Source: Bacteroidia bacterium (lineage in GTDB: Bacteria > Bacteroidota > Bacteroidia > NS11-12g > UBA9320). Taken from it: a stretch of 21,216 nt of DNA. The notes beneath the pieces are model-generated. The model was not told the origin of the DNA and ran no database searches. It saw nothing but the letters and a program-made list of their open reading frames with translations. The stretch is taken from positions 1 to 21,216 of the forward strand of contig JAKMFK010000230.1 of NCBI GenBank assembly GCA_022425465.1. Direction: 5' to 3'. The translations under genes and the position numbers were made by a program. Shown one piece after another: positions 6,218 to 17,829 of this stretch. How positions within the stretch are numbered: position 1 is the stretch's first letter; the number at the start of each line of letters is the position of its first letter.

Positions 6218-7879
6218 CTATTTCACCTTGAGAGAACTTCCTTCTTTGTCATAAAACTTAACCTTAATATTTAATGAATTTTTTATATAGTGAACAGTCG
6301 AAGGGGTTATTCCTTTTTTTGAACTTACTTTTTTACGATACTTCCAAAACCCTAAGAATTTTCTATTAACATAATACAACAAATCCATGGACTCAGCTGC
6401 TCCTGAAAAAATAACAACTTCTTTTGGATTTGAGTAAAAGACATGTGGCCTAACTGTTTTTTTGTCTAAATAATTTTGATATTCAAATGCGATATCAAAT
6501 CGTGCGACACCATAACCAATGACTGAGTCTGGTGTGGTATTGTTATCTGCTGTTTGTCTGATGAGGTCATTTATTTCTTTTGGAGAAAGTTGAGGAAAGG
6601 CTTGTAGAAGGCATGCAACACCACCTGCAACAATTGGGGTTGAGAAACTTGTACCGTTTCCTTGATAATAAAACCCGCTTGGACTAGCTACAGTAGCTCC
6701 AACGCCAAGGGCTACTACATCAGGTTTTATGGATTGATTCGCATTATTACCTCTACTGCTAAAATGTGCTGGAGAACCATTTTTATTGATTGCACCAACC
6801 GTTAAAACTTCCTCAACATCTGCGGGAAAGCCAATCTTCTGCCATTTGCTGTTTCCTTGGTTTCCTGCACTATTAAGCACTATAATCCCTTTTGAAACCG
6901 CTGTTTTGGCACCGATGCTGATGTAGGATGTATTGCCATCTAATTGGCTGTGAGTATAGTTTAGATTTTGGTCGTCAAATTGGTTGTATCCTAGTGAGGA
7001 TGTAATAATATCAACCCCTAAGCTATCGGCAATTTCAGCAGCTTTACACCAGTTTAGTTCCTCAATGGGATATTCACTCTTTCCATTTTCTGTTTTGAAT
7101 AGAGTTAGTTTAGCTAATGGCCCACTTCCGATGAATTTTCCTCTGTCATAGGCACCTAGAGCAGATGCACATGCAGTACCATGGGTATCAAAGTCACTTA
7201 GTGAGTTATCTAGGTTAACCAAATCATAGCCATACCTTAATTTCTCATTGGCTTGATGTCTCAGAAAACCGGGAATTTTTGTGATGTTTTTAAAGCCTGC
7301 ATCAAAAACAGCAACACTTATATTATTTCCATTAAAACCCTTGTTGTGAAGGTGTAGAACTCCAATCTGTTTATTTTGTTGATATGACTTTTCATAGTCC
7401 TCTTCATTTAATCTGACTGTCTCCATTGAGCTTACCTTTAATTTTAAGATGGGCTGATGGAACTCAATAGACTCTCTTTTGCTATTGGGATTAAATGTGC
7501 CAACGTATTTTATTTCTGTTATGAATGGAAGACTATCTAGTGACATAACAAAACTTTTAGAAGATTCAATAACAGCCCCATTAGACCATTTTAGGGAGTA
7601 TCTGACATTAACACTATCCAATTGGTTAAGTATTGACAGGTATTCTTTTTTAACAGGATAGTCAGTTGAATTTAATGAAATTTGATATTTGTTCCTTCTA
7701 TTGAGAGCTTTCTTACTCAATATTTCCTCTGGGATGTATGACGTGTCTTTGTCGAGGAATTGAACATAAAATGCATCGTTTGTATTCTGAGAAAAACTAA
7801 GATGAGAGTTGACAATCAATAAAACAAAAAGGATACTACCAATTGGTTTGTAATAGGGTTTCTGTGTACTCGATTCCAT
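6218..7879 (-). CDS. Subtilisin-like S8 family serine peptidase
   Basis: Secreted serine endopeptidase of the subtilase family, 553 residues from the chosen ATG. That start places a hydrophobic signal segment (SILFVLLIVNSHLSFSQ) at the N-terminus; a longer frame reaching 7996 would bury it. Residues ~30-180 look like a prodomain. The catalytic triad is visible: Asp193 in VAVFDAGF, His233 in DTHGTACA, Ser411 in GNGTSFSTP; the oxyanion Asn340 is in NSAGNQG. The Asp motif is DAG rather than the commoner DSG. About 110 residues follow the catalytic domain, ending in a short basic beta-rich tail. I do not recognise a T9SS sorting domain there, so the route and location after the Sec step are uncertain. 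The start lies inside the upstream lipoprotein gene, an overlap of 44 bases in another frame, so the two genes are probably co-transcribed. Confidence 0.9.
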   Translation of the reverse strand: MESSTQKPYYKPIGSILFVLLIVNSHLSFSQNTNDAFYVQFLDKDTSYIPEEILSKKALNRRNKYQISLNSTDYPVKKEYLSILNQLDSVNVRYSLKWSNGAVIESSKSFVMSLDSLPFITEIKYVGTFNPNSKRESIEFHQPILKLKVSSMETVRLNEEDYEKSYQQNKQIGVLHLHNKGFNGNNISVAVFDAGFKNITKIPGFLRHQANEKLRYGYDLVNLDNSLSDFDTHGTACASALGAYDRGKFIGSGPLAKLTLFKTENGKSEYPIEELNWCKAAEIADSLGVDIITSSLGYNQFDDQNLNYTHSQLDGNTSYISIGAKTAVSKGIIVLNSAGNQGNSKWQKIGFPADVEEVLTVGAINKNGSPAHFSSRGNNANQSIKPDVVALGVGATVASPSGFYYQGNGTSFSTPIVAGGVACLLQAFPQLSPKEINDLIRQTADNNTTPDSVIGYGVARFDIAFEYQNYLDKKTVRPHVFYSNPKEVVIFSGAAESMDLLYYVNRKFLGFWKYRKKVSSKKGITPSTVHYIKNSLNIKVKFYDKEGSSLKVK

Positions 7880-8510
7880 CTTTATATTTTCCAGGTTGCG
7901 TTTCAATATCTTTAAATTGTCGTTGAATGAGTCCAATACCTCGTGCGTATATTTCCTCTTCAAATTGAGTAAATATGATATCTTGTCTATCCGCAATTTT
8001 AATTGTCACTGTTTCATCAAATGTTGAATCATCGATAAAAAATGATTCATCTACCTGATTATAGTATCCATATTGGGCATCTTGGTTGTTGAACATATTA
8101 ATATCCCACCTTTTATTATTTTGGACAGGGAAGCTTAATTTTACTTTTTTTACATCAAAATCTGTTCTCTCTATTCCGAAGTCATCATCCTTTAGAACAG
8201 AGTAATGTTGAAATTCCCAACTTTTACCCTCATCATTACTATGATCAATTTGTAAACGGTATGCAGTATCATTCTCTTGATCTAAAAATGAACTTTCAAT
8301 GGTTTCTTTTATCCAGTAGTTTATTGTGTCTGTCTGACTATTGAATGCATCATGGTTAAGCTCTGTATGATCGTATATAATGTACTTGCCAATTTCTATT
8401 GGTGAGAGACTAATTTTCTTTGGAACTATTAATTCATCTGGCTTACACCCCCAATAGGAAAGGATTATTATTGAAATGAAAATTATTAATTGGCGATTCA
8501 AATTATTCAC
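7836..8510 (-). CDS. Putative lipoprotein of unknown function
   Basis: 224 residues starting with GTG; I see no in-frame ATG that would keep the signal segment. The N-terminus has a strong hydrophobic stretch (LIIFISIIILSYW) followed by GC at residues 21-22. This suggests a lipoprotein signal, although the -3/-2 residues Tyr-Trp are poor for a lipobox. The rest is beta-rich with many Asp, Glu and Asn residues; I recognise no domain. It is first in a two-gene unit with the subtilisin-like peptidase, whose start codon is nested in its last 44 bases. A role linked to that peptidase, such as substrate or chaperone-like partner, is only a guess from position. A candidate promoter element lies 31 bases upstream. 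Confidence 0.75.
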   Translation of the reverse strand: MNNLNRQLIIFISIIILSYWGCKPDELIVPKKISLSPIEIGKYIIYDHTELNHDAFNSQTDTINYWIKETIESSFLDQENDTAYRLQIDHSNDEGKSWEFQHYSVLKDDDFGIERTDFDVKKVKLSFPVQNNKRWDINMFNNQDAQYGYYNQVDESFFIDDSTFDETVTIKIADRQDIIFTQFEEEIYARGIGLIQRQFKDIETQPGKYKDGIEYTETLLQTNW

Positions 8511-10135: not shown

Positions 10136-11497
10136 TTATCTCTGAATATTTATTTTACGAGTCAATTGGTTAATGCCATCGTCGAAGTGAAGTAGGTAAT
10201 TTCCTTCATAAACTGTTTGAACATCGTAATATGTTATGGTACTCCCTGGAGGTATTGATGTCGAGCTTATTTTCTTACCATTCATATCTGATAGTGTAAT
10301 CTGAACATTATTTCTATTTAATCCACCAAGTTGTATGGCTATCAGGTCTGACGCTGGATTAGGAAATACAGTTATTTTAGTATGATTAAGAATACTAATA
10401 TTATTAGTTGTAGGTATGTAAACAGTCGTTTCTGCATCTACTGAAGAAACATTTCTTCGTTCGAAATTTCCATAGAAATAAGGGCCTACTGCGTAGGGGT
10501 AAGCAGAATTCCAATCTCCATCAACAGTACAAAAGTAAGCATAGGTTCCTTCTGGGTATTCTGGAGTTATGCAAAATCGACCATTGTGTTCATCGAGGAC
10601 ATCTTCTTGTGGACTCGCATTAAATCCATAGTCTTCTCTAAAGTAACCCAGAAAGTATGTTGCATCAATCGATGGACCGTCATCAACGTCTGTTCCATCA
10701 TGATGGTGTGTTCTCTCAGTTATATTTCTAAGTTGATAACCTGACTTTATTCTAGTAATTCCACCAGTTCCATCATTGTTTGCATACCCATAAGCTCCAT
10801 AGATAGGATATCCGTCATATGCAAATCCGATAAGCGGAGAATGCTTAGTGCTATCAATAGCATATAAACCTTCAGCATCATAGATATTACAAATATCTGA
10901 GATAACCTCTAAGTCAAGCTTGAAGGCTGAAGGGTTTTGATGGTGATGATAATTTCCCATTGCGGGATGTCCTTTAGCACAGTCAAATCCCTCTTTTTCT
11001 GCAGGTATAGCATCACGATTCCAAGCCATACTTGCGTTTGGTCCTCCCGGACATCTCGGGTTACCCGGACCACCACACAGTGCGTTCGTTTGAGGATTCC
11101 ATGCCACGCCATCTCGGTAATCAAATAAGGCTACACCATTTATGAATAAACCAATATTTCCTCCCACAGTAGCATCAAGTTCGCTTGTGTTTTGTGAAGG
11201 ATTCAAAGGTATTTTGTAAATACCATTTTGGTTTTCAGCATTACTTGGATTCCCATCATTAAAAGGACCCGTTGGATAGGAGGGAATACCAGTAGCTGTG
11301 ACGTACACAAAATCATCAGAATATTCCACCTTTTGACAATTGACTAGAATGTTGTTTTCGGTAAGTGAAGGATTACCTTTCGGGTAATATGTGCCAGTTT
11401 TTGTTGTATTTTGAAGCCAAGATGTGATTGCTGGGTTAAGTTGAGCTTTTACGATAGTGCTTATTAGAACACATAATATGATAGTTGTATTTCTCAT
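10136..11497 (-). CDS. Secreted YHYH-domain protein with T9SS sorting domain
   Basis: 453 residues with a signal peptide (cleavage near VKA, residue 18). The central part matches the YHYH family: GHPAMGNYHHHQNPS (His184-186), FAYDGYPIYGAYGY (residues 225-238), ERTHHHDGTD (His264-266) and LDEHNGRF..TPEYPEGTYAYF (301-322). Several Cys residues (54, 141, 149, 173, 203, 309, 323) could pair outside the cell. The His clusters are candidate metal ligands, but the family has no established function known to me. The last ~80 residues (VFPNPASDLIAI, then DMNGKKI) are a T9SS type A sorting domain, so it should be exported across the outer membrane. It is the last gene of the minus-strand run, 28 bases after the MbnH-like gene with no recognisable promoter in the gap. 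This suggests a function tied to the MbnP/MbnH pair. Confidence 0.87.
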   Translation of the reverse strand: MRNTTIILCVLISTIVKAQLNPAITSWLQNTTKTGTYYPKGNPSLTENNILVNCQKVEYSDDFVYVTATGIPSYPTGPFNDGNPSNAENQNGIYKIPLNPSQNTSELDATVGGNIGLFINGVALFDYRDGVAWNPQTNALCGGPGNPRCPGGPNASMAWNRDAIPAEKEGFDCAKGHPAMGNYHHHQNPSAFKLDLEVISDICNIYDAEGLYAIDSTKHSPLIGFAYDGYPIYGAYGYANNDGTGGITRIKSGYQLRNITERTHHHDGTDVDDGPSIDATYFLGYFREDYGFNASPQEDVLDEHNGRFCITPEYPEGTYAYFCTVDGDWNSAYPYAVGPYFYGNFERRNVSSVDAETTVYIPTTNNISILNHTKITVFPNPASDLIAIQLGGLNRNNVQITLSDMNGKKISSTSIPPGSTITYYDVQTVYEGNYLLHFDDGINQLTRKINIQR

Positions 11498-11525
11498 TTT
11501 ATTTAACTTTTAATTTTAGACGTTA

Positions 11526-12551
11526 TTAATTACTAATTTCCCTTGGTTGAAGTAATATTTTTCTTGGAAATTTATTTTGAGGATTAAAAATGAAATCTCT
11601 GTCGTTCAATGTTATTAAAAAAGATATTAAATCTGATTTATCATTTGAAGATAGCAAAATTTTATGATCAAGTTCTTTTGAAATGTATTTATACTCTTTG
11701 TTGACACTGGTGTAATGATTTATTACGGAACTCAATTTCTTAAATCGACCATCATGCATATAGGGATAGGTGTATCCAACATTTCGTAATGTTGGCACTT
11801 TAAATTTCATACTATCTTTGGATATTTTGGTGATATTGAATCTTCCTAAATCCATCGATTGACTATCTATACTAAGACCATTATTCTCGAATTTGTAATT
11901 TGTGAACAGGGGTTCAGTGTGGCATGAATTGCAGTGTTTTAAAAATAGCTTGTAGCCCTTATTTTCTTGAACAGAAAATGTGTCCTCACTCTGCCGCACT
12001 TTATCATATTTACTATTATCCGAAATTAGAGTAAGTTGAAACTGAGTTAAGGCTTTAAGCATTCTTTGGCTATTAATAAGCGAATTACCATATGCTTTCT
12101 TAAATAATGGTGGGTATAATTTTTTGTTTTGAAGCTTGTCAATTACATTTTCTATTGATTCGGCCATTTCTCCAGGGTGCGTTATTGGAGCAAGTGCTTG
12201 CACATCCAAGTGATTAATGGCACCATCCCACATAAGTTCTTTTTGCCAAGCAAGATTAATAAGGGCAGGAGCATTCCGTTTTCCGATACTGTCATGGATT
12301 CCGTGACTTAGAGCGTGGTCAGTGTGGGCAAAGCTATTATATGGAGAATGACAACTCGCACAAGAAATGGTATTATTAGCTGATAAAATTGGGTCATAAA
12401 ATAGTGCCCTTCCTAGTTGTGTTAAATCATAAGTATTGCTTGAAAAGTTAAGTTCATAGTTAGGTTTTGGAAAATAGTTTGGGTAGTGCTTTGTTATATT
12501 TGAAGCAGCTATACATAGGAAAAATAGTGAGATAATTAGGCCATTTTTCAT
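11526..12551 (-). CDS. MbnH-like/MauG-type diheme cytochrome c peroxidase family protein
   Basis: 341 residues with an N-terminal signal segment (cleavage near IAAS, residue 17). Two c-type heme sites are present, CASCH (Cys64, Cys67, His68) and CNSCH (Cys207, Cys210, His211), spaced as in the bacterial cytochrome c peroxidase/MauG superfamily. Other family marks are FYDPILSANNTIS, MWDGAINHLDVQA, PGEMAESI and TLRNVGYTYPYMHDG. The last holds Tyr, Met and His residues that could act as distal heme ligands. The family includes true peroxidases and MauG/MbnH enzymes that oxidise residues of partner proteins. The ATG overlaps the stop of the MbnP-like gene by four bases (ATGA). This tight pairing makes an MbnH-type role, oxidising a tryptophan of MbnP in the periplasm, the best reading. 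A plain peroxide-reducing enzyme cannot be excluded from sequence alone. Confidence 0.88.
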   Translation of the reverse strand: MKNGLIISLFFLCIAASNITKHYPNYFPKPNYELNFSSNTYDLTQLGRALFYDPILSANNTISCASCHSPYNSFAHTDHALSHGIHDSIGKRNAPALINLAWQKELMWDGAINHLDVQALAPITHPGEMAESIENVIDKLQNKKLYPPLFKKAYGNSLINSQRMLKALTQFQLTLISDNSKYDKVRQSEDTFSVQENKGYKLFLKHCNSCHTEPLFTNYKFENNGLSIDSQSMDLGRFNITKISKDSMKFKVPTLRNVGYTYPYMHDGRFKKLSSVINHYTSVNKEYKYISKELDHKILLSSNDKSDLISFLITLNDRDFIFNPQNKFPRKILLQPREISN

Positions 12552-13177
12552 AAATCAGTAAAAAAGGATTCGGATAGTAGATCAGCGAATTTCATGGCAA
12601 TGTTACAAGGACTCATGATTTTACTTTTTACGGCTAATATTTCTTGTAAGATAATGTCAATTGGAAGATATACCTTGTTGAATGTCATGGGCAAAGTTAC
12701 TGTTCTATATGTGTTGAATGGGATAAGGTAACCTCCAATATGATACGTGAAAGGTTGTTTACTCTCTCCTTCAAGTTTAAGGTTAATATATCCACTTTGC
12801 CAAGTCCAATACATCCCATTTTGAGGGTCTAAATCACCAGTTAAAGCACCTTGATTATTAGTAGCACTATCAATACCTAATGAAAAAGATATTTTATTAT
12901 ATGATATGTTCGTTGGGGTTTGAATCGTAAGGGTTTCGGGGAATTCAGCATCCATCAGTTGATAGGATGGTTGCTCAAATATAATTTGAGAATCTTTTAG
13001 TAATTTGACATGCCCAATATAGAATCGTATAGAGGTGATTTTTGTTTGATCGGAGTACGTTGAATCTAAAATTAATGGATTTGATTCATAAGTGGGTTCA
13101 AATTTGATGTGAGATTGTCCAAGTATATCGCTAAAAAAGAAGTTTATCCATAAAATGACTAAAAAACATCGTTTCAT
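12548..13177 (-). CDS. MbnP-like periplasmic protein
   Basis: 209 residues with a signal peptide (cleavage near ILGQ, residue 20). It matches the MbnP-like family as I know it: IRFYIGHVKL near residues 50-60, then FSLGIDSATNNQGALTGDLD (98-117), GMYWTWQSGYINLKLEG (121-137) and YHIGGY (145-150). The C-terminus is short and helical. Established knowledge: in methanotrophs MbnP binds copper and a tryptophan is oxidised to kynurenine by the diheme partner MbnH. Trp124 and Trp126 in the WTW motif are the obvious candidates here; I cannot say which, if either, is modified. It begins six bases after the CnrX-like gene and shares an ATGA overlap with the MbnH-like gene, so the pair is translationally coupled. 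Copper handling is inferred. Confidence 0.83.
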   Translation of the reverse strand: MKRCFLVILWINFFFSDILGQSHIKFEPTYESNPLILDSTYSDQTKITSIRFYIGHVKLLKDSQIIFEQPSYQLMDAEFPETLTIQTPTNISYNKISFSLGIDSATNNQGALTGDLDPQNGMYWTWQSGYINLKLEGESKQPFTYHIGGYLIPFNTYRTVTLPMTFNKVYLPIDIILQEILAVKSKIMSPCNIAMKFADLLSESFFTDL

Positions 13178-13183
13178 AATTTC

Positions 13184-13639
13184 TTACTTTTTTGGATGTT
13201 TTGCTCTTGTTTTTCTTTTAAAAAATATTTTGTTCAAGTCCATGTTTTCTAGTTTTGAGGATTGGTTTGGATCACACAATTTCTTGATTTCTCTAAAATG
13301 ATTAATGTGAGTTTTTTCAATTTTTTTATGCAATAAAGCAATTTCGGAAATAACCAATTCTTCATTACTTAATAAGCTATCAACCTTTAATTGTGAAATT
13401 AATTTGTCCTTAGTTCTGTGTAATTGGTTATTTAACTTTCTGATAGATTTTTGGTGGTCTTTGATAAGCTTATCGTAATGAGTAATTTGAGTTTCATTAA
13501 ATTTTAGTTTTTCGATAATAAGTTGTCTTGGTTTGGTTTTTCGGTGTTTTGAATTTAGGAGAAATCCACCAGAAATTAGCAAAATATTAGAGAATACTAG
13601 ACCTGCAATAATCCATTTTAATATTTTTATTTTATTCAT
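13184..13639 (-). CDS. CnrX/Spy-like periplasmic metal-sensor candidate
   Basis: 151 residues: one membrane segment (residues ~7-29), then an all-helical periplasmic part rich in Lys, Leu, Gln and Glu. The pattern LKFNETQITHYDKLIKDHQ, a long amphipathic hairpin and then HINHFREIKKLCDPNQ resembles the Spy/CpxP/CnrX fold (heavy-metal resistance family). His54 and His62 in helix one and His111, His114 and Cys122 in the last helices are possible metal ligands; CnrX itself uses two helix-one His and a late His and Met. The start ATG overlaps the preceding 98-residue gene by eight bases. Placed after an ECF sigma factor and a one-pass membrane protein, it fits the sensor place of a CnrYXH-type module. 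Metal identity cannot be read from the sequence. Confidence 0.7.
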   Translation of the reverse strand: MNKIKILKWIIAGLVFSNILLISGGFLLNSKHRKTKPRQLIIEKLKFNETQITHYDKLIKDHQKSIRKLNNQLHRTKDKLISQLKVDSLLSNEELVISEIALLHKKIEKTHINHFREIKKLCDPNQSSKLENMDLNKIFFKRKTRAKHPKK

Positions 13640-13928
13640 TATAAATCTGATTTTTATCGAGTTCTATATAGCTATTAGAATCATTTTCATTTTCTTTATG
13701 CTTTTGATGGTAATATACAATCGTACTAATATCAGCTACTAGGAATAGAATAAAAATTGCAGCCACTCTTCGAATATAAACTGCTGATATTTTTTCGTAC
13801 CTATTCGATTGGATATTCAATAAAATCCTTGAGGCAACATGCTTAGGTATTTCAACACTTTTAATCTTTTGCAGAAAATCGACATTCATATTTACTTTAT
13901 AGACGTATTTTTTTTCATTTTCCTTCAT
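13632..13928 (-). CDS. Small single-pass membrane protein, candidate anti-sigma factor
   Basis: 98 residues: a ~53-residue cytoplasmic N-terminus with a predicted helix (FLQKIKSVEIPKHVASRIL), one membrane segment at about 54-73, and a short, charged periplasmic tail. I recognise no named domain. It overlaps the ECF sigma gene by 14 bases and the CnrX-like gene by eight, and its size and topology match CnrY-type anti-sigma factors, which hold the sigma factor at the membrane. Anti-sigma function is inferred from context only. Confidence 0.6.
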   Translation of the reverse strand: MKENEKKYVYKVNMNVDFLQKIKSVEIPKHVASRILLNIQSNRYEKISAVYIRRVAAIFILFLVADISTIVYYHQKHKENENDSNSYIELDKNQIYNE

Positions 13929-14433
13929 TATTGATAAGCTTTGATAAATTGTTTTTTCCTCGTTGATATAATGATTCCACTGATTTTACGGTGCAATGCA
14001 TGATTAACGCAGTTTCTTTTTGAGTTTTATTTTCTATTTTTAACAGTATAATAGCAGTTTTTTGTCTTTCTGGTAGCTGATTTATTGCATCAAATATTTT
14101 TTTTACGGCTTCTTTTTGTTCTAAAATTACACCAGGATGGTCAAAATGTGAGAATTGAACTTTCTCCTTAGTTTGATTGTTTCTAATTGCATCAAAGAAA
14201 AATCTTCTTTTAATCCTTTTGCGGGATTTAATGAAATCTAATGATTTATTAATTGCAATTCTGTATACCCAAGTTTTTATTGAAGATTTTTTCTGAAAAG
14301 AGTTTAAATTTTTGTAAATGGATAAAAATATATCTTGCGTAATTTCTTGTGCATCTGCTTGATTTTGAACATATTGTAATGCTAAGTTGTAGACAATATT
14401 TTTATACTCGTTATATATTTTCTCAAAATCCAA
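13915..14433 (-). CDS. ECF-family RNA polymerase sigma factor
   Basis: 172 residues, the normal ECF length. Region 2 lies at ~5-75 (DAQEITQDIFLSIYKNL, then IKTWVYRIAINKSLDFIKSRKR) and region 4 at ~115-168 (INQLPERQKTAIILL and the helix-turn-helix KTQKETALIMHCTVKSVES). Linker residues 76-105 are basic then acidic. The start must be the TTG at 14433: a TAG lies three bases upstream in frame and no ATG precedes region 2. The gene begins 27 bases after the CotH stop and overlaps the 98-residue gene. ECF factors are normally held by a co-transcribed anti-sigma; the next two genes supply a plausible membrane anti-sigma and periplasmic sensor. I could not identify its target promoter. Confidence 0.9.
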   Translation of the reverse strand: MDFEKIYNEYKNIVYNLALQYVQNQADAQEITQDIFLSIYKNLNSFQKKSSIKTWVYRIAINKSLDFIKSRKRIKRRFFFDAIRNNQTKEKVQFSHFDHPGVILEQKEAVKKIFDAINQLPERQKTAIILLKIENKTQKETALIMHCTVKSVESLYQRGKNNLSKLINNEGK

Positions 14434-14460
14434 TGACTACTAAGCTTAAAAAGTATTCGA

Positions 14461-15795
14461 TCATTGAATATAATTTTGAGCAGCATTTAAACGGCTTACA
14501 TTATGAGACCTGAGTGTTTGAACAGCTAAATTAAATTGACCATTGACATAAGAATATCCACTTACTTCGTTGTTTGCGGATACATTTAAAAGGGATTCTT
14601 GAGTATTGTAAATATTTGTCATTCGATTATTCTCGAAAGAAGATTCAATGAAGAATTTGATGTGGTTTTTATAAATGGATTTATATTCACTGTCTGCAAT
14701 AATGAAACTAATTAGTGGCCAATTATTACCCACCTCAGTCATTTCAAATGAGAGTGAACCACCTCGTTTACCATTTTGAAAAGCTTCGTTATTATCCCAT
14801 GTTATCCATTTTATCAGATCGTCATTGGGGTCATGGTATAGGTAGTAATTATGAGTCATTCTCCCGTAGGTGTCCCAATTTTGAATGGTGTTATTTACAG
14901 CGAGGTACTTCAAGAATCCATCCACATCAAAAACGCTTTCTAAATTCTTTTTCCATTCCTCTGGATTTGAACTTCTTGTGTCAGCATGGAGTAGGTCAAA
15001 CATTTCTTGAATATCACTTCTAGCATTGATTTCCTCATTGGTTTTTTGTTCGAAGTCATTTAAGGTAAATCCGTTTGTTGAAAATCTGGCACCATTGCCA
15101 TCAGGTTTGTAGCAATTTCCATTTTTTGAACCGAACCAGTTTTTTAAAAAGGTATCAAAAACAATTTCAGTCATGGTATAAACCCCATAGTATTTGTATG
15201 TTCCTGTACCTTCATCGATATATACTTCATAAAAAGCTGTTCGAACAGCAGGTACGCCAAAGTTTCTAAATAAGTCTGCTGCAGACTTCTCTCGCATAAG
15301 TGAAGGGTCATTATAATTGCTACTCATGGATAATTCTTTAAAACCATAGAATCGTTGGTCTGCAATCTCTGGGAATTCATATTCCCATTTGTCAAAGTCA
15401 AATCTTAGGGGAAGTTTATTGCTATTGGCTCGAAGTGAAGAGTTTCCCTTGTATCGAATGCCAACGTGCTCCCACATTAGACCATTAAAGTTTACTTCAC
15501 AGTGGAAATAGTCTGGATTTTCGCTTGGGAATCCACCTGGACCTCCACCACCTTGTTTCTGAGATAAGTCCGTCTGCATGGCTTGCCATTCATCTGCTGT
15601 GAAGATGATATCCAGCCTATTTACCTTGTCTTGGTTAAATACAACGTCATAATTTGCAGGATACCCATTAGAATGACTAGAAGATTCAGTATCAATTATA
15701 TTTTCTTCATTAGGTATGAAGATTTCTTTTTTACAAGAGAATAATACAAGTGTGGTGATTGTAATTAATGTCGCTTTTATTTTCCAAGTATTCAT
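14461..15795 (-). CDS. CotH-kinase family lipoprotein
   Basis: 444 residues with a lipoprotein signal (LVLFSC, Cys21). CotH domain motifs follow in order: VNRLDIIFTADEW (58-70), a glycine linker QGGGGPGGFP (80-90), VGIRYKGNSSLR (111-122), LPLRFDFDKW, KELSMSSNYNDPSLMREK (153-170), YYGVYTMTE (202-210) and the late ITWDNNEAF (331-339). Established knowledge: CotH proteins are atypical kinases, in Bacillus phosphorylating spore-coat proteins, and their active sites use acidic residues; Asp334 in WDNNEAF is the candidate here. No spore function is possible in this lineage, so another envelope substrate must exist. The gene overlaps DUF2490 by four bases (ATGA), making it the last of a tight four-gene set with the VTC and DUF4956 genes. 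Lipid anchoring suggests it acts in the periplasm or at the surface. Confidence 0.88.
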   Translation of the reverse strand: MNTWKIKATLITITTLVLFSCKKEIFIPNEENIIDTESSSHSNGYPANYDVVFNQDKVNRLDIIFTADEWQAMQTDLSQKQGGGGPGGFPSENPDYFHCEVNFNGLMWEHVGIRYKGNSSLRANSNKLPLRFDFDKWEYEFPEIADQRFYGFKELSMSSNYNDPSLMREKSAADLFRNFGVPAVRTAFYEVYIDEGTGTYKYYGVYTMTEIVFDTFLKNWFGSKNGNCYKPDGNGARFSTNGFTLNDFEQKTNEEINARSDIQEMFDLLHADTRSSNPEEWKKNLESVFDVDGFLKYLAVNNTIQNWDTYGRMTHNYYLYHDPNDDLIKWITWDNNEAFQNGKRGGSLSFEMTEVGNNWPLISFIIADSEYKSIYKNHIKFFIESSFENNRMTNIYNTQESLLNVSANNEVSGYSYVNGQFNLAVQTLRSHNVSRLNAAQNYIQ

Positions 15796-16496
15796 TTGTT
15801 CTTCTTTTTAATTGTGAAATTATATTTGATGCCTAATATGTTGGTTCTTTTTGGGTAGTTTCCAAAGAGTTCTTTTTCTGTTCTCAAAAAAGCACCGACA
15901 CTTCCTTTTTTCAATTTGTAATTTGAACTCAACGTATAACGTGCTTTGTAGATTCCATCATTATTCGTGATTCCATTAAATAGTTCAGCAGATAAGGTAG
16001 GATCTAATTTCCAATTTTTGATATTATAGGTAGATGCTACTTTTAGTCGTATGGTCTTTTTAATCTCATCTGTAGTTTTCTGGAGTTCATCTTTATTCTG
16101 ATACCTAATTCTATATTTCATTGCAAATCGACTGACAGAATGATTAAATTCTAGATCTACTTGCCAGCGGAGGTGACTCTCATTTCCTTGAATTTTGCCT
16201 CGATCATCATTTTCTGTGATTAATCTAGATGCAAACCCAATATTCAGAAAGTTAGCAAGTTTGTAATCTAACCCTAGTTGAGTAAAATATACATCCATAG
16301 TAGATGAATTGTCTTTTAGTCGAAGTTGTTGCGATAGGCTCAACTTTAGATTATCGGTGGGCTTATAGCGGAGATTAATGGATGACCAAGTTTCAAAATC
16401 TCGTATCGTGTGATAGGTGCCATCTTGAGCATTTGAGAGCAATGGTAGAGAGGTAAACATTGCTATAATCAGAACATAGTTAATGATTATTTTCAT
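15792..16496 (-). CDS. DUF2490 outer-membrane beta-barrel protein
   Basis: 234 residues with a signal peptide (cleavage near SNAQ, residue 24). The rest alternates hydrophobic and polar residues in many short strands, with aromatic ends such as FETWSSINLRYK, MKYRIRYQNK and GIKYNFTIKKK. This is the usual DUF2490 pattern and suggests a barrel of about 10-12 strands in the outer membrane. Function is unknown. It lies between the DUF4956 and CotH genes with ATGA overlaps on both sides, which implies a shared task, perhaps an outer-membrane partner of the lipid-anchored CotH protein (inferred). Confidence 0.8.
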   Translation of the reverse strand: MKIIINYVLIIAMFTSLPLLSNAQDGTYHTIRDFETWSSINLRYKPTDNLKLSLSQQLRLKDNSSTMDVYFTQLGLDYKLANFLNIGFASRLITENDDRGKIQGNESHLRWQVDLEFNHSVSRFAMKYRIRYQNKDELQKTTDEIKKTIRLKVASTYNIKNWKLDPTLSAELFNGITNNDGIYKARYTLSSNYKLKKGSVGAFLRTEKELFGNYPKRTNILGIKYNFTIKKKNK

Positions 16497-17098
16497 GAGG
16501 TTTTTGAGTATTTAATGGTTAGTGATGTGGTATCCTTCAAAAAATCGATTGACCCAATTTCGACCTCTATTATTTGGAGTCCTGTTCTTTCTTCAAGGTC
16601 TTTTATTAAGATTTCACGCATCTCAGGTTTAATGTTTTCAATTTTCTCATACGTGATTGTCTTAGTTAGGGTGTTTTCTCTAAATAATAATCGTTCAATG
16701 ATGAATATTGTAATTACAACAATGACATTTGCACCTACAATTTCTGCATAACTCATCTTTTGATTGGCGAGTGAGTTGATGACAGATACCCCAATGATTA
16801 TAAAAAGGTAAGTCATCTCCTTAATAGGAATGGGATTAGTACGGTATCGTATGATTCCAAAAATGGCGAATAGACCCAAAGCCATACCAATATCTAGTTC
16901 ATATTTTTTAAGGGTAAAACATAGAAAGAATACGATAATTCCTATCATATAATAAGTGAAAAGGTAGTCCCTCTTCTTGACAGTAGAGTAGTACAACCAT
17001 TGGATAATGATGGTCAAAAAGGAGATGTTCAGAAAAAACCGAAACATCATTTTATAGAAGTCGTCATCAAAGATGGGTATGCTCAAGAATTCGTTCAT
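16493..17098 (-). CDS. DUF4956 inner-membrane protein
   Basis: 201 residues with five likely membrane segments (about 17-38, 45-63, 70-86, 95-111 and 118-138) and a ~60-residue soluble C-terminal domain of alpha-beta type. The conserved DUF4956 motif GLFAIFGIIRYRTNPIPIKEMTYLF (75-99) is intact. The family has no known reaction, but it is regularly found beside VTC-domain polyphosphate polymerases. Here it overlaps the VTC gene by four bases upstream and DUF2490 by four bases downstream. A role as membrane channel or translocation partner for the polymer made by the VTC protein is a reasonable but unproven inference. Confidence 0.86.
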   Translation of the reverse strand: MNEFLSIPIFDDDFYKMMFRFFLNISFLTIIIQWLYYSTVKKRDYLFTYYMIGIIVFFLCFTLKKYELDIGMALGLFAIFGIIRYRTNPIPIKEMTYLFIIIGVSVINSLANQKMSYAEIVGANVIVVITIFIIERLLFRENTLTKTITYEKIENIKPEMREILIKDLEERTGLQIIEVEIGSIDFLKDTTSLTIKYSKTS

Positions 17099-17829
17099 TG
17101 TATGGTTATCTTATTAATTTTTTTGAATTTACGTTTGAATATATTTTGTTTCAAAGATGGGTCATTTTCTGCCATTCCAATGCAGTATTTACTAACCCGC
17201 ATTGGGTGAATGCCCATAGACTTTAGTGATTGAAATACAGCAGAATGCCGATTGAGACGTTGTTGTTTTAATTCTAATATGACGAGATCATCTTTAAAAG
17301 GTCTATTGTTATAAGATAGGTTTAAATCGATAGTTACTCGCTCTGTCATGAGGTGATTCACAAGCGTAAATCTATTGAATTGATTGTTAATTGATTTTTT
17401 AAGCGTATAGCTTTTCCCCACTAGTTTTTGTATGAAAGATAGGGACTTTATGTCTAAATCTTCATTAAGTGAATCGATACGAATCCGACTTTTCTCAGTA
17501 TTTCCCTTATTGAATTTCTTTTTTACTTCTAAGAAAAATAAATTGGATTCTACATAGTTACGTATCCTTATTTTTACTCTTTTCGCTTTCCCATTGTGAT
17601 GCATCAGATATAAATCTGAATTGGGAGTGTCAAAGTAATTGGATTTGTAAGTCATAACTCGATTTTTATTGATTTCCAAGACCCTGTATTCCTTATGAAT
17701 GTTTTCAAGTAACTGAGGAAGTATTTTTATATTAAAGATAAACTTGGTGTCAACTCTTTTCATGAGTGATACGGCATCCATTTCTTCAAGAGAAATGGGT
17801 TGGAATTTATCTAAATTTATTCTATTCAA
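17095..17829 (-). CDS. VTC-domain polyphosphate polymerase-like protein
   Basis: 244 residues forming a single VTC/CYTH-type tunnel domain. Motifs seen are SLMKRVDTKF (21-30), YKSNYFDTP (61-69), MHHNGKAKRVKIRIRNY (76-92), FLEVKKKFNKGN (99-110), ERVTIDLNL (163-171), VILELK (183-188) and SKYCIG (213-218). The basic residues Lys24, Arg25, Lys86, Arg88 and Arg90 and the acidic Glu101 and Glu186 are in the positions expected for phosphate and metal binding in this fold. Eukaryotic Vtc4 makes polyphosphate from ATP; the bacterial members are assumed to be similar. The start is the TTG at 17829: a TAA lies about 30 bases upstream in frame and no ATG precedes the conserved KFQPISLEEMD. It is the first gene of the ATGA-coupled set. 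Confidence 0.87.
   Translation of the reverse strand: MNRINLDKFQPISLEEMDAVSLMKRVDTKFIFNIKILPQLLENIHKEYRVLEINKNRVMTYKSNYFDTPNSDLYLMHHNGKAKRVKIRIRNYVESNLFFLEVKKKFNKGNTEKSRIRIDSLNEDLDIKSLSFIQKLVGKSYTLKKSINNQFNRFTLVNHLMTERVTIDLNLSYNNRPFKDDLVILELKQQRLNRHSAVFQSLKSMGIHPMRVSKYCIGMAENDPSLKQNIFKRKFKKINKITIQ

Follow-up and report, generated by a model that had tools for sequence, protein, structure and literature searches.

A putative CnrYXH-like sigma factor switch adjoining MbnP, MbnH and YHYH genes recurs in Bacteroidota

Results

Six adjoining genes encode a putative regulatory trio and three candidate effectors

The window analysed here is the whole 21,216-nucleotide contig JAKMFK010000230.1 of a Bacteroidia bacterium (assembly GCA_022425465.1). 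A preliminary description, made from the sequence alone, had proposed that six tightly packed minus-strand genes (10136-14433) form a self-regulated copper system. The open reading frame (ORF) check reproduced all six, with the same order and spacings (-14, -8, +6, -4 and +28 bases). They encode an extracytoplasmic function (ECF) sigma factor, a small one-pass membrane protein, a membrane-anchored periplasmic sensor, an MbnP-family protein, a MauG/MbnH-type di-haem enzyme and a YHYH protein with a sorting tail for the type IX secretion system (T9SS) (Table 1).

The ECF protein contains only sigma regions 2 and 4, which places it in the ECF class, and it gave 19 matches in the PDB, CnrH (4cxf; 4.5e-10) among them. 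The small protein matched no Pfam family above the cut-off; its position and its single hydrophobic stretch make it a candidate anti-sigma factor, and such a protein recurs between the ECF and sensor genes of other loci. The -14 spacing holds for its longest ORF. A second in-frame ATG at 13889 is an alternative start and may be the true one; the homologue in locus L055 begins at the matching place.

The sensor has the N-terminal anchor and the helical-hairpin fold of a CnrX-type protein, and the best-ranked solved structures for its predicted model were those of CnrX. Pfam gave no useful match for the window protein itself; within its family, 11 of 19 members matched Metal_resist (PF13801) at E<=1 (best 2.8e-12). 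We take the metal ligands of CnrX to be H42, H46, E63 and H119, together with M123. In a profile alignment to NccX, which is weak (E 0.09), this set is not matched: among the five places only that of H119 holds a histidine (H114 of the sensor). In the same weak alignment no histidine stands at the H42 and H46 places, and M123, for which an excerpt of PMC7689651 is the source, is replaced by isoleucine. The earlier label "CnrX/Spy-like" is supported by the fold, the family matches and the recurring gene order; profile searches found the expected families directly for the ECF, MbnP, CCP_MauG and YHYH proteins, and for the sensor only through the Metal_resist matches of its relatives.

The MbnP-family protein combines PF20243 with a WxW motif, and W124, W126, H146 and M188 are invariant in 40/40 aligned sequences. 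Six chains of MbnP (7l6g) were the only PDB matches of its predicted model below 0.001 (best Foldseek value 2.8e-7). In the di-haem enzyme, which adjoins mbnP and carries a CCP_MauG domain, both c-type haem motifs (C64-H68 and C207-H211) are invariant in 17/17 aligned homologues, as for an MbnH. Neither protein reached its NCBIfam cut-off, MbnP scoring 33.1 bits against 140 for TIGR04052 and MbnH 203.2 bits (5.4e-60) against 362.85 for TIGR04039; these families nonetheless ranked first. PF14240 together with the sorting tail marks the YHYH protein for T9SS export. We found no published paper that assigns a function to YHYH proteins. In Chryseobacterium and Flavobacterium, a further di-haem enzyme of the MauG type is encoded after YHYH (L127 12278-13477, L165 12270-13469 and L115 12147-13331; Pfam checked for L127 only).

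The six-gene cassette recurs in other Bacteroidota

Among 58 genomes of relatives, the window's own included, the sensor was found in 15, and MbnP adjoins it in 13 of these. The other two carry a multicopper oxidase and a redoxin behind the ECF/anti-sigma/sensor trio (L085) or YHYH and SCO1 in front of it (L084).

A scan of GTDB genomes yielded 552 MbnP relatives, and the best 80 by similarity were used to define loci. The trio was scored in the 63 loci with at least 2 kb upstream (the 17/80 with less were left out): it precedes MbnP in 31, and neither ECF nor sensor is present in 30. Downstream, among 66 loci with at least 3.5 kb, MbnH is present in 65 and YHYH in 55, low-score YHYH labels being possible cross-hits to T9SS tails. 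All six genes occur in 24 of the 52 loci with both flanks. Named carriers include Chryseobacterium sp. ZHDP1, C. gambrini, C. cheonjiense, Neolewinella persica and N. agarilytica; in both Neolewinella species other genes intervene between cassette members. According to Pfam, other copies add multicopper oxidase, sulfatase, redoxin, CotH, SCO1 or extra YHYH proteins, CotH separating sensor from MbnP in L114 and L144 and following a promoter-like dyad (see below) in N. agarilytica. The gene order is therefore not unique to one genome, and its recurrence in the named Chryseobacterium and Neolewinella and in many Bacteroidota assemblies indicates more than chance.

A promoter-like dyad precedes regulator and effector genes

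Upstream of ECF genes in Chryseobacterium, Neolewinella-type and same-genus loci we found a dyad of the form CCGAAGGAT-N13-nCGTCnAA. A matrix built from 8 such sites was run over 117 loci, with the reversed sequence as control; four known duplicates had been dropped from this set, whose loci are related and include some near-copies. Scores of at least 18 were reached at 83 places (training sites included) against 1 in reversed sequence, and scores of at least 20 at 71 against 0. As ORF starts were taken as the longest possible and "before a gene" was counted from the called start, the 83 places divide into 31 at the start of the anti-sigma gene (24 ahead of it and 7 that overlap its longest-ORF start), 23 before YHYH, 9 before ECF (the sites used for training plus a near-copy), 2 before MbnP, 1 before a VTC-domain gene, 1 before an oxidase gene, 15 elsewhere on the cassette strand and 1 on the opposite strand. 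All 10 dyads scoring at least 16 that overlap the longest-ORF start of the anti-sigma gene are followed by an in-frame start codon 1-13 bp past the site.

A dyad of at least 16 stands at the ECF or anti-sigma gene in 41/56 trio loci. At 14 or more, it precedes YHYH, oxidase or MbnH in 24/49 trio loci with YHYH, compared with 6 trio-less loci (37 with YHYH) for YHYH or oxidase (Fisher p 0.003, a value that overstates the difference given the relatedness and near-copies of the loci). No dyad of at least 14 was found in 8/56 trio loci, four of which (L054, L056, L064 and L141) belong to a separate ECF clade. In L084 (2845-5807), a trio with no MbnP follows genes for YHYH, EF-hand, MORN and SCO1 proteins, and a dyad (23.7) precedes YHYH.

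A strict form of the pattern was also searched in whole genomes. The first set gave 16 matches in 12 genomes against 8 in the control; in the second, 20 matches in 108 genomes against 25 showed no enrichment by number. Among 34 distinct places, 22 lie at most 120 bp before ECF, anti-sigma, YHYH, MauG, multicopper oxidase, CotH or sulfatase genes, unlinked ones included, and 12 do not; 6 of the 22 are already known ECF sites and several are near-copy pairs. Unlinked dyads precede some YHYH, MauG, CotH, sulfatase and oxidase genes. The 4.9 Mb of Chryseobacterium sp. ZHDP1 contain two strict matches, each inside the cassette operon, and two further cassettes with ECF, anti-sigma (identified by profile), sensor and MbnP genes (L261 and L263) were reached solely through the strict pattern. 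The shared element at regulator and effector genes, together with the recurring order, supports the self-regulation proposed earlier.

The three best dyad scores of the window on either strand (14.6, 11.0 and 11.0) all fall on the coding strand, a score of 10.9 being reached at 2.2 places on average in shuffled windows. The exact pattern GAAGG-N17-GTCTA occurs twice against 0.02 expected and in 0/100 shuffles; it was set after its window sites had been seen, its two halves before. The dyad at the ECF/anti-sigma junction, both halves of which 4 same-genus relatives retain, begins at the longest-ORF ATG of the anti-sigma gene and could therefore function only with a later protein start; ATG 13889 follows in frame 8 bases past the site. 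In the same-genus genome G007 a dyad scoring 22.2 sits 12 bp before VTC. Among four same-genus copies, the -10 half before YHYH reads CGTC where an ECF gene is present (the window and G007), CATC in G003 and CGTA in G008.

The regulatory trio is a module with varied cargo

In a sample of the phylum, the sensor was matched at E<=1e-10 in 79/198 genomes. Forty of these loci were fetched, comprising the highest-ranked and a selection from further down: a same-strand ECF gene lies just upstream of the sensor in 37/40, MbnP is present in 3/40, and other cargo varies. Recurring alternatives are a 315-aa protein and proteins of ~520-580 aa, some of them paired (L206, L207, L208, L237; L201, L202, L219, L223, L235); in several of these loci a CGTCTAA-like half is paired with different -35 words.

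MbnP-linked ECF proteins are scattered over the ECF tree with 9 label changes, and a single clade was rejected. The separate clade comprises six rows (L141, L054, L124, L056, L064 and L067, L124 being a copy of L054), and its sensors lack H62 and H114. In same-genus G003 the trio is cleanly absent and CotH runs directly into MbnP, with flanks 88-90% identical (L049 5300-5480); in this 97% complete genome neither a sensor nor an ECF orthologue (best 29%) was found. Nor was an ECF orthologue found in G008, which is 91% complete and whose contig breaks off within the sensor tail; at another place in that genome a weak match to the sensor (E 3.7e-4) is interrupted by stops. At this contig end (L048 6665-6869) the last ~15 sensor codons are joined to unrelated sequence, through either a real rearrangement or an assembly fault.

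The transcription unit probably comprises ten genes

CotH ends 27 bp before the ECF start and is itself preceded, with 4-base overlaps, by DUF2490, DUF4956 and VTC genes. As these four are co-directional with the cassette and as closely spaced, the unit probably starts at VTC and comprises ten genes (10136-17829); the six-gene boundary first drawn was probably too narrow.

Table 1 Features of the locus in the window
Feature	Position	Strand	Details
ECF sigma factor	13915..14433	-	TTG start; 172 aa; Sigma70_r2 2.4e-17, r4_2 3.2e-13 (Pfam)
Small one-pass membrane protein, candidate anti-sigma factor	13632..13928	-	longest ORF; position and hydrophobic stretch
Sensor, membrane-anchored, periplasmic, Metal_resist/CnrX/Spy fold	13184..13639	-	conserved H62, H114, C122
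MbnP-family protein	12548..13177	-	WxW motif (W124, W126); PF20243 3.6e-40
MauG/MbnH-type di-haem enzyme	11526..12551	-	CCP_MauG 2.8e-54 (Pfam); two CXXCH
YHYH protein with T9SS sorting tail	10136..11497	-	PF14240 1.8e-53, PF18962 1.3e-10
Promoter-like dyad CCAAGGGAA-N14-ACGTCTAAA	11515..11546	-	18 bp before YHYH; -35 half in MbnH end; score 14.6
Promoter-like dyad ATGAAGGAA-N13-ACGTCTATA	13898..13928	-	ECF/anti-sigma junction; score 11.0; exact GAAGG-N17-GTCTA
Promoter-like dyad TTGAAGGTT-N13-TAGTCTAAA	17859..17889	-	29 bp before VTC; score 11.0; exact GAAGG-N17-GTCTA
CotH-type protein, probable co-transcribed member	14461..15795	-	PF08757 6.6e-61
DUF2490 protein, probable co-transcribed member	15792..16496	-	PF10677 2.3e-18; 4-base overlaps
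DUF4956 membrane protein, probable co-transcribed member	16493..17098	-	PF16316 5.6e-51; 4-base overlaps
VTC-domain (polyphosphate polymerase-like) protein, probable first gene	17095..17829	-	PF09359 6.6e-25; dyad 29 bp upstream

Discussion

Collectively, the data indicate that the envelope switch with an MbnPH-YHYH output is genuine and recurrent and very probably drives itself. Our preferred reading, which we consider probable, is that the window encodes a CnrYXH-like switch acting on its own operon, with copper as the most likely metal sensed. The small one-pass protein would hold the ECF sigma factor at the inner membrane. Binding of metal, most likely copper, by the periplasmic sensor through a histidine (perhaps cysteine) site would loosen this hold, and the freed sigma factor would recognise a GAAGG / CGTC(T)A-type promoter at its own regulators and at the effectors. 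The WxW tryptophan of MbnP would then be oxidised by the di-haem enzyme, building a copper site; further output would be the T9SS-secreted YHYH protein and, depending on the species, multicopper oxidase, SCO1, redoxin, sulfatase or CotH. A response to copper excess is a guess by analogy with CnrX.

The closest regulatory counterpart is CnrYXH/NccYXH of Cupriavidus metallidurans, whose mechanism is taken here from parts of PMC7689651 and PMC4598750. Both systems combine, in one operon, an ECF sigma factor, a one-pass anti-sigma factor (putative here) and a membrane-anchored periplasmic sensor of the same fold. They differ in gene order, which is sigma-anti-sigma-sensor in the window, and in output, an RND pump there and MbnPH-YHYH here; no RND efflux pump gene was found among the 19 window proteins scanned. 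In Methylosinus, MbnI/MbnR/MbnT likewise place an ECF sigma and an anti-sigma factor near an MbnPH pair, and a section of PMC3621798 describes methanotroph MbnPH near ECF/FecR-type regulators. Signalling there uses a FecR-type anti-sigma factor and a TonB receptor, whereas family scans matched neither of these FecIR-type features among the window proteins. MopE/SACCP and CorA/CorB of methanotrophs also pair a di-haem enzyme with an adjoining partner protein, MopE having a kynurenine copper site; unlike the present locus, no ECF module is mentioned for them in that section of PMC3621798. According to parts of PMC9426467, the CruR (DUF2946) copper operons of proteobacteria contain MbnPH-like and AhpC_TSA genes, but an upstream ORF regulates them post-transcriptionally. 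We found no literature description of a CnrYXH-like switch joined to an MbnPH-YHYH output.

Copper as the signal is plausible from the effectors, because the MbnP model matches MbnP 7l6g and some loci add multicopper oxidase or SCO1. Two observations point the other way. H62 and H114, the best-conserved sensor histidines, are about as common beside other cargo (30/37 and 32/37) as in MbnP-linked sensors (58/66 and 60/66) and therefore mark the module, not its cargo, which speaks against a copper-specific sensor; and, contrary to the pattern of the YHYH -10 half, the dyad before VTC is retained in G003 although the ECF gene is absent. Of the copper circuit first proposed, self-regulation and the CnrX/Spy-like sensor are supported, while its copper part is an inference from the effectors.

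The same self-driven switch might instead have a sensor that answers another metal, redox or envelope stress, as with Spy/CpxP relatives, the copper-type effectors being one of several unrelated cargoes. We regard this as rather unlikely, though it would fit the general distribution of the trio in Bacteroidota and its mostly MbnP-less loci, the H62 and H114 counts above, and the Spy/CpxP names that sources give to many sensor relatives among the 120 listed of 372. The copper-type character of the MbnP-linked cargo speaks against it, as does H111, which is typical of MbnP-linked sensors (36/66, near-copies included) and rare in others (3/38, one of these beside SCO1 and YHYH); this enrichment may, however, reflect shared ancestry. 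An unlikely variant is a circuit for copper shortage, serving scavenging like the CorA/MopE and methanobactin genes of methanotrophs, and not for excess. Copper lowers expression of the CorA/CorB genes according to a section of PMC3621798, which would agree with it, but CnrX senses for a metal-resistance pump (PMC7689651, in part) and the window proteins gave no match to a TonB receptor. That the ten overlapping co-directional genes form an ordinary long operon with a housekeeping promoter upstream of VTC, the ECF genes being passengers or acting elsewhere, would suit G003, where the effectors directly follow CotH with no ECF gene, but is very improbable given the dyads at internal anti-sigma and YHYH genes in lineages with no VTC or CotH found in the locus, and the altered YHYH -10 where ECF is missing (two genomes against two).

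The locus could tentatively be viewed as part of a widespread undescribed copper regulon of Bacteroidota. In it a plug-in module of ECF, anti-sigma and CnrX-fold proteins, recruited repeatedly, would drive kynurenine-type MbnPH copper sites, secreted YHYH, multicopper oxidase and SCO1 from one promoter type, which in this genus would also serve a CotH/VTC (polyphosphate-type) unit. MbnPH pairs are common and their role is called unknown in a part of PMC9601215; the conserved switch and promoter link them and YHYH to multicopper oxidase and SCO1, and provide a testable signal, a regulon and named hosts (Chryseobacterium and Neolewinella). The sensor-sigma module moves between cargoes, being cleanly absent in one species and linked to MbnPH in ECF lineages scattered over more than one clade.

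Elsewhere in the window, a subtilase ORF and a 224-aa ORF (6218-8510, minus strand) overlap by 161 bases, and one of the two starts was probably called too early.

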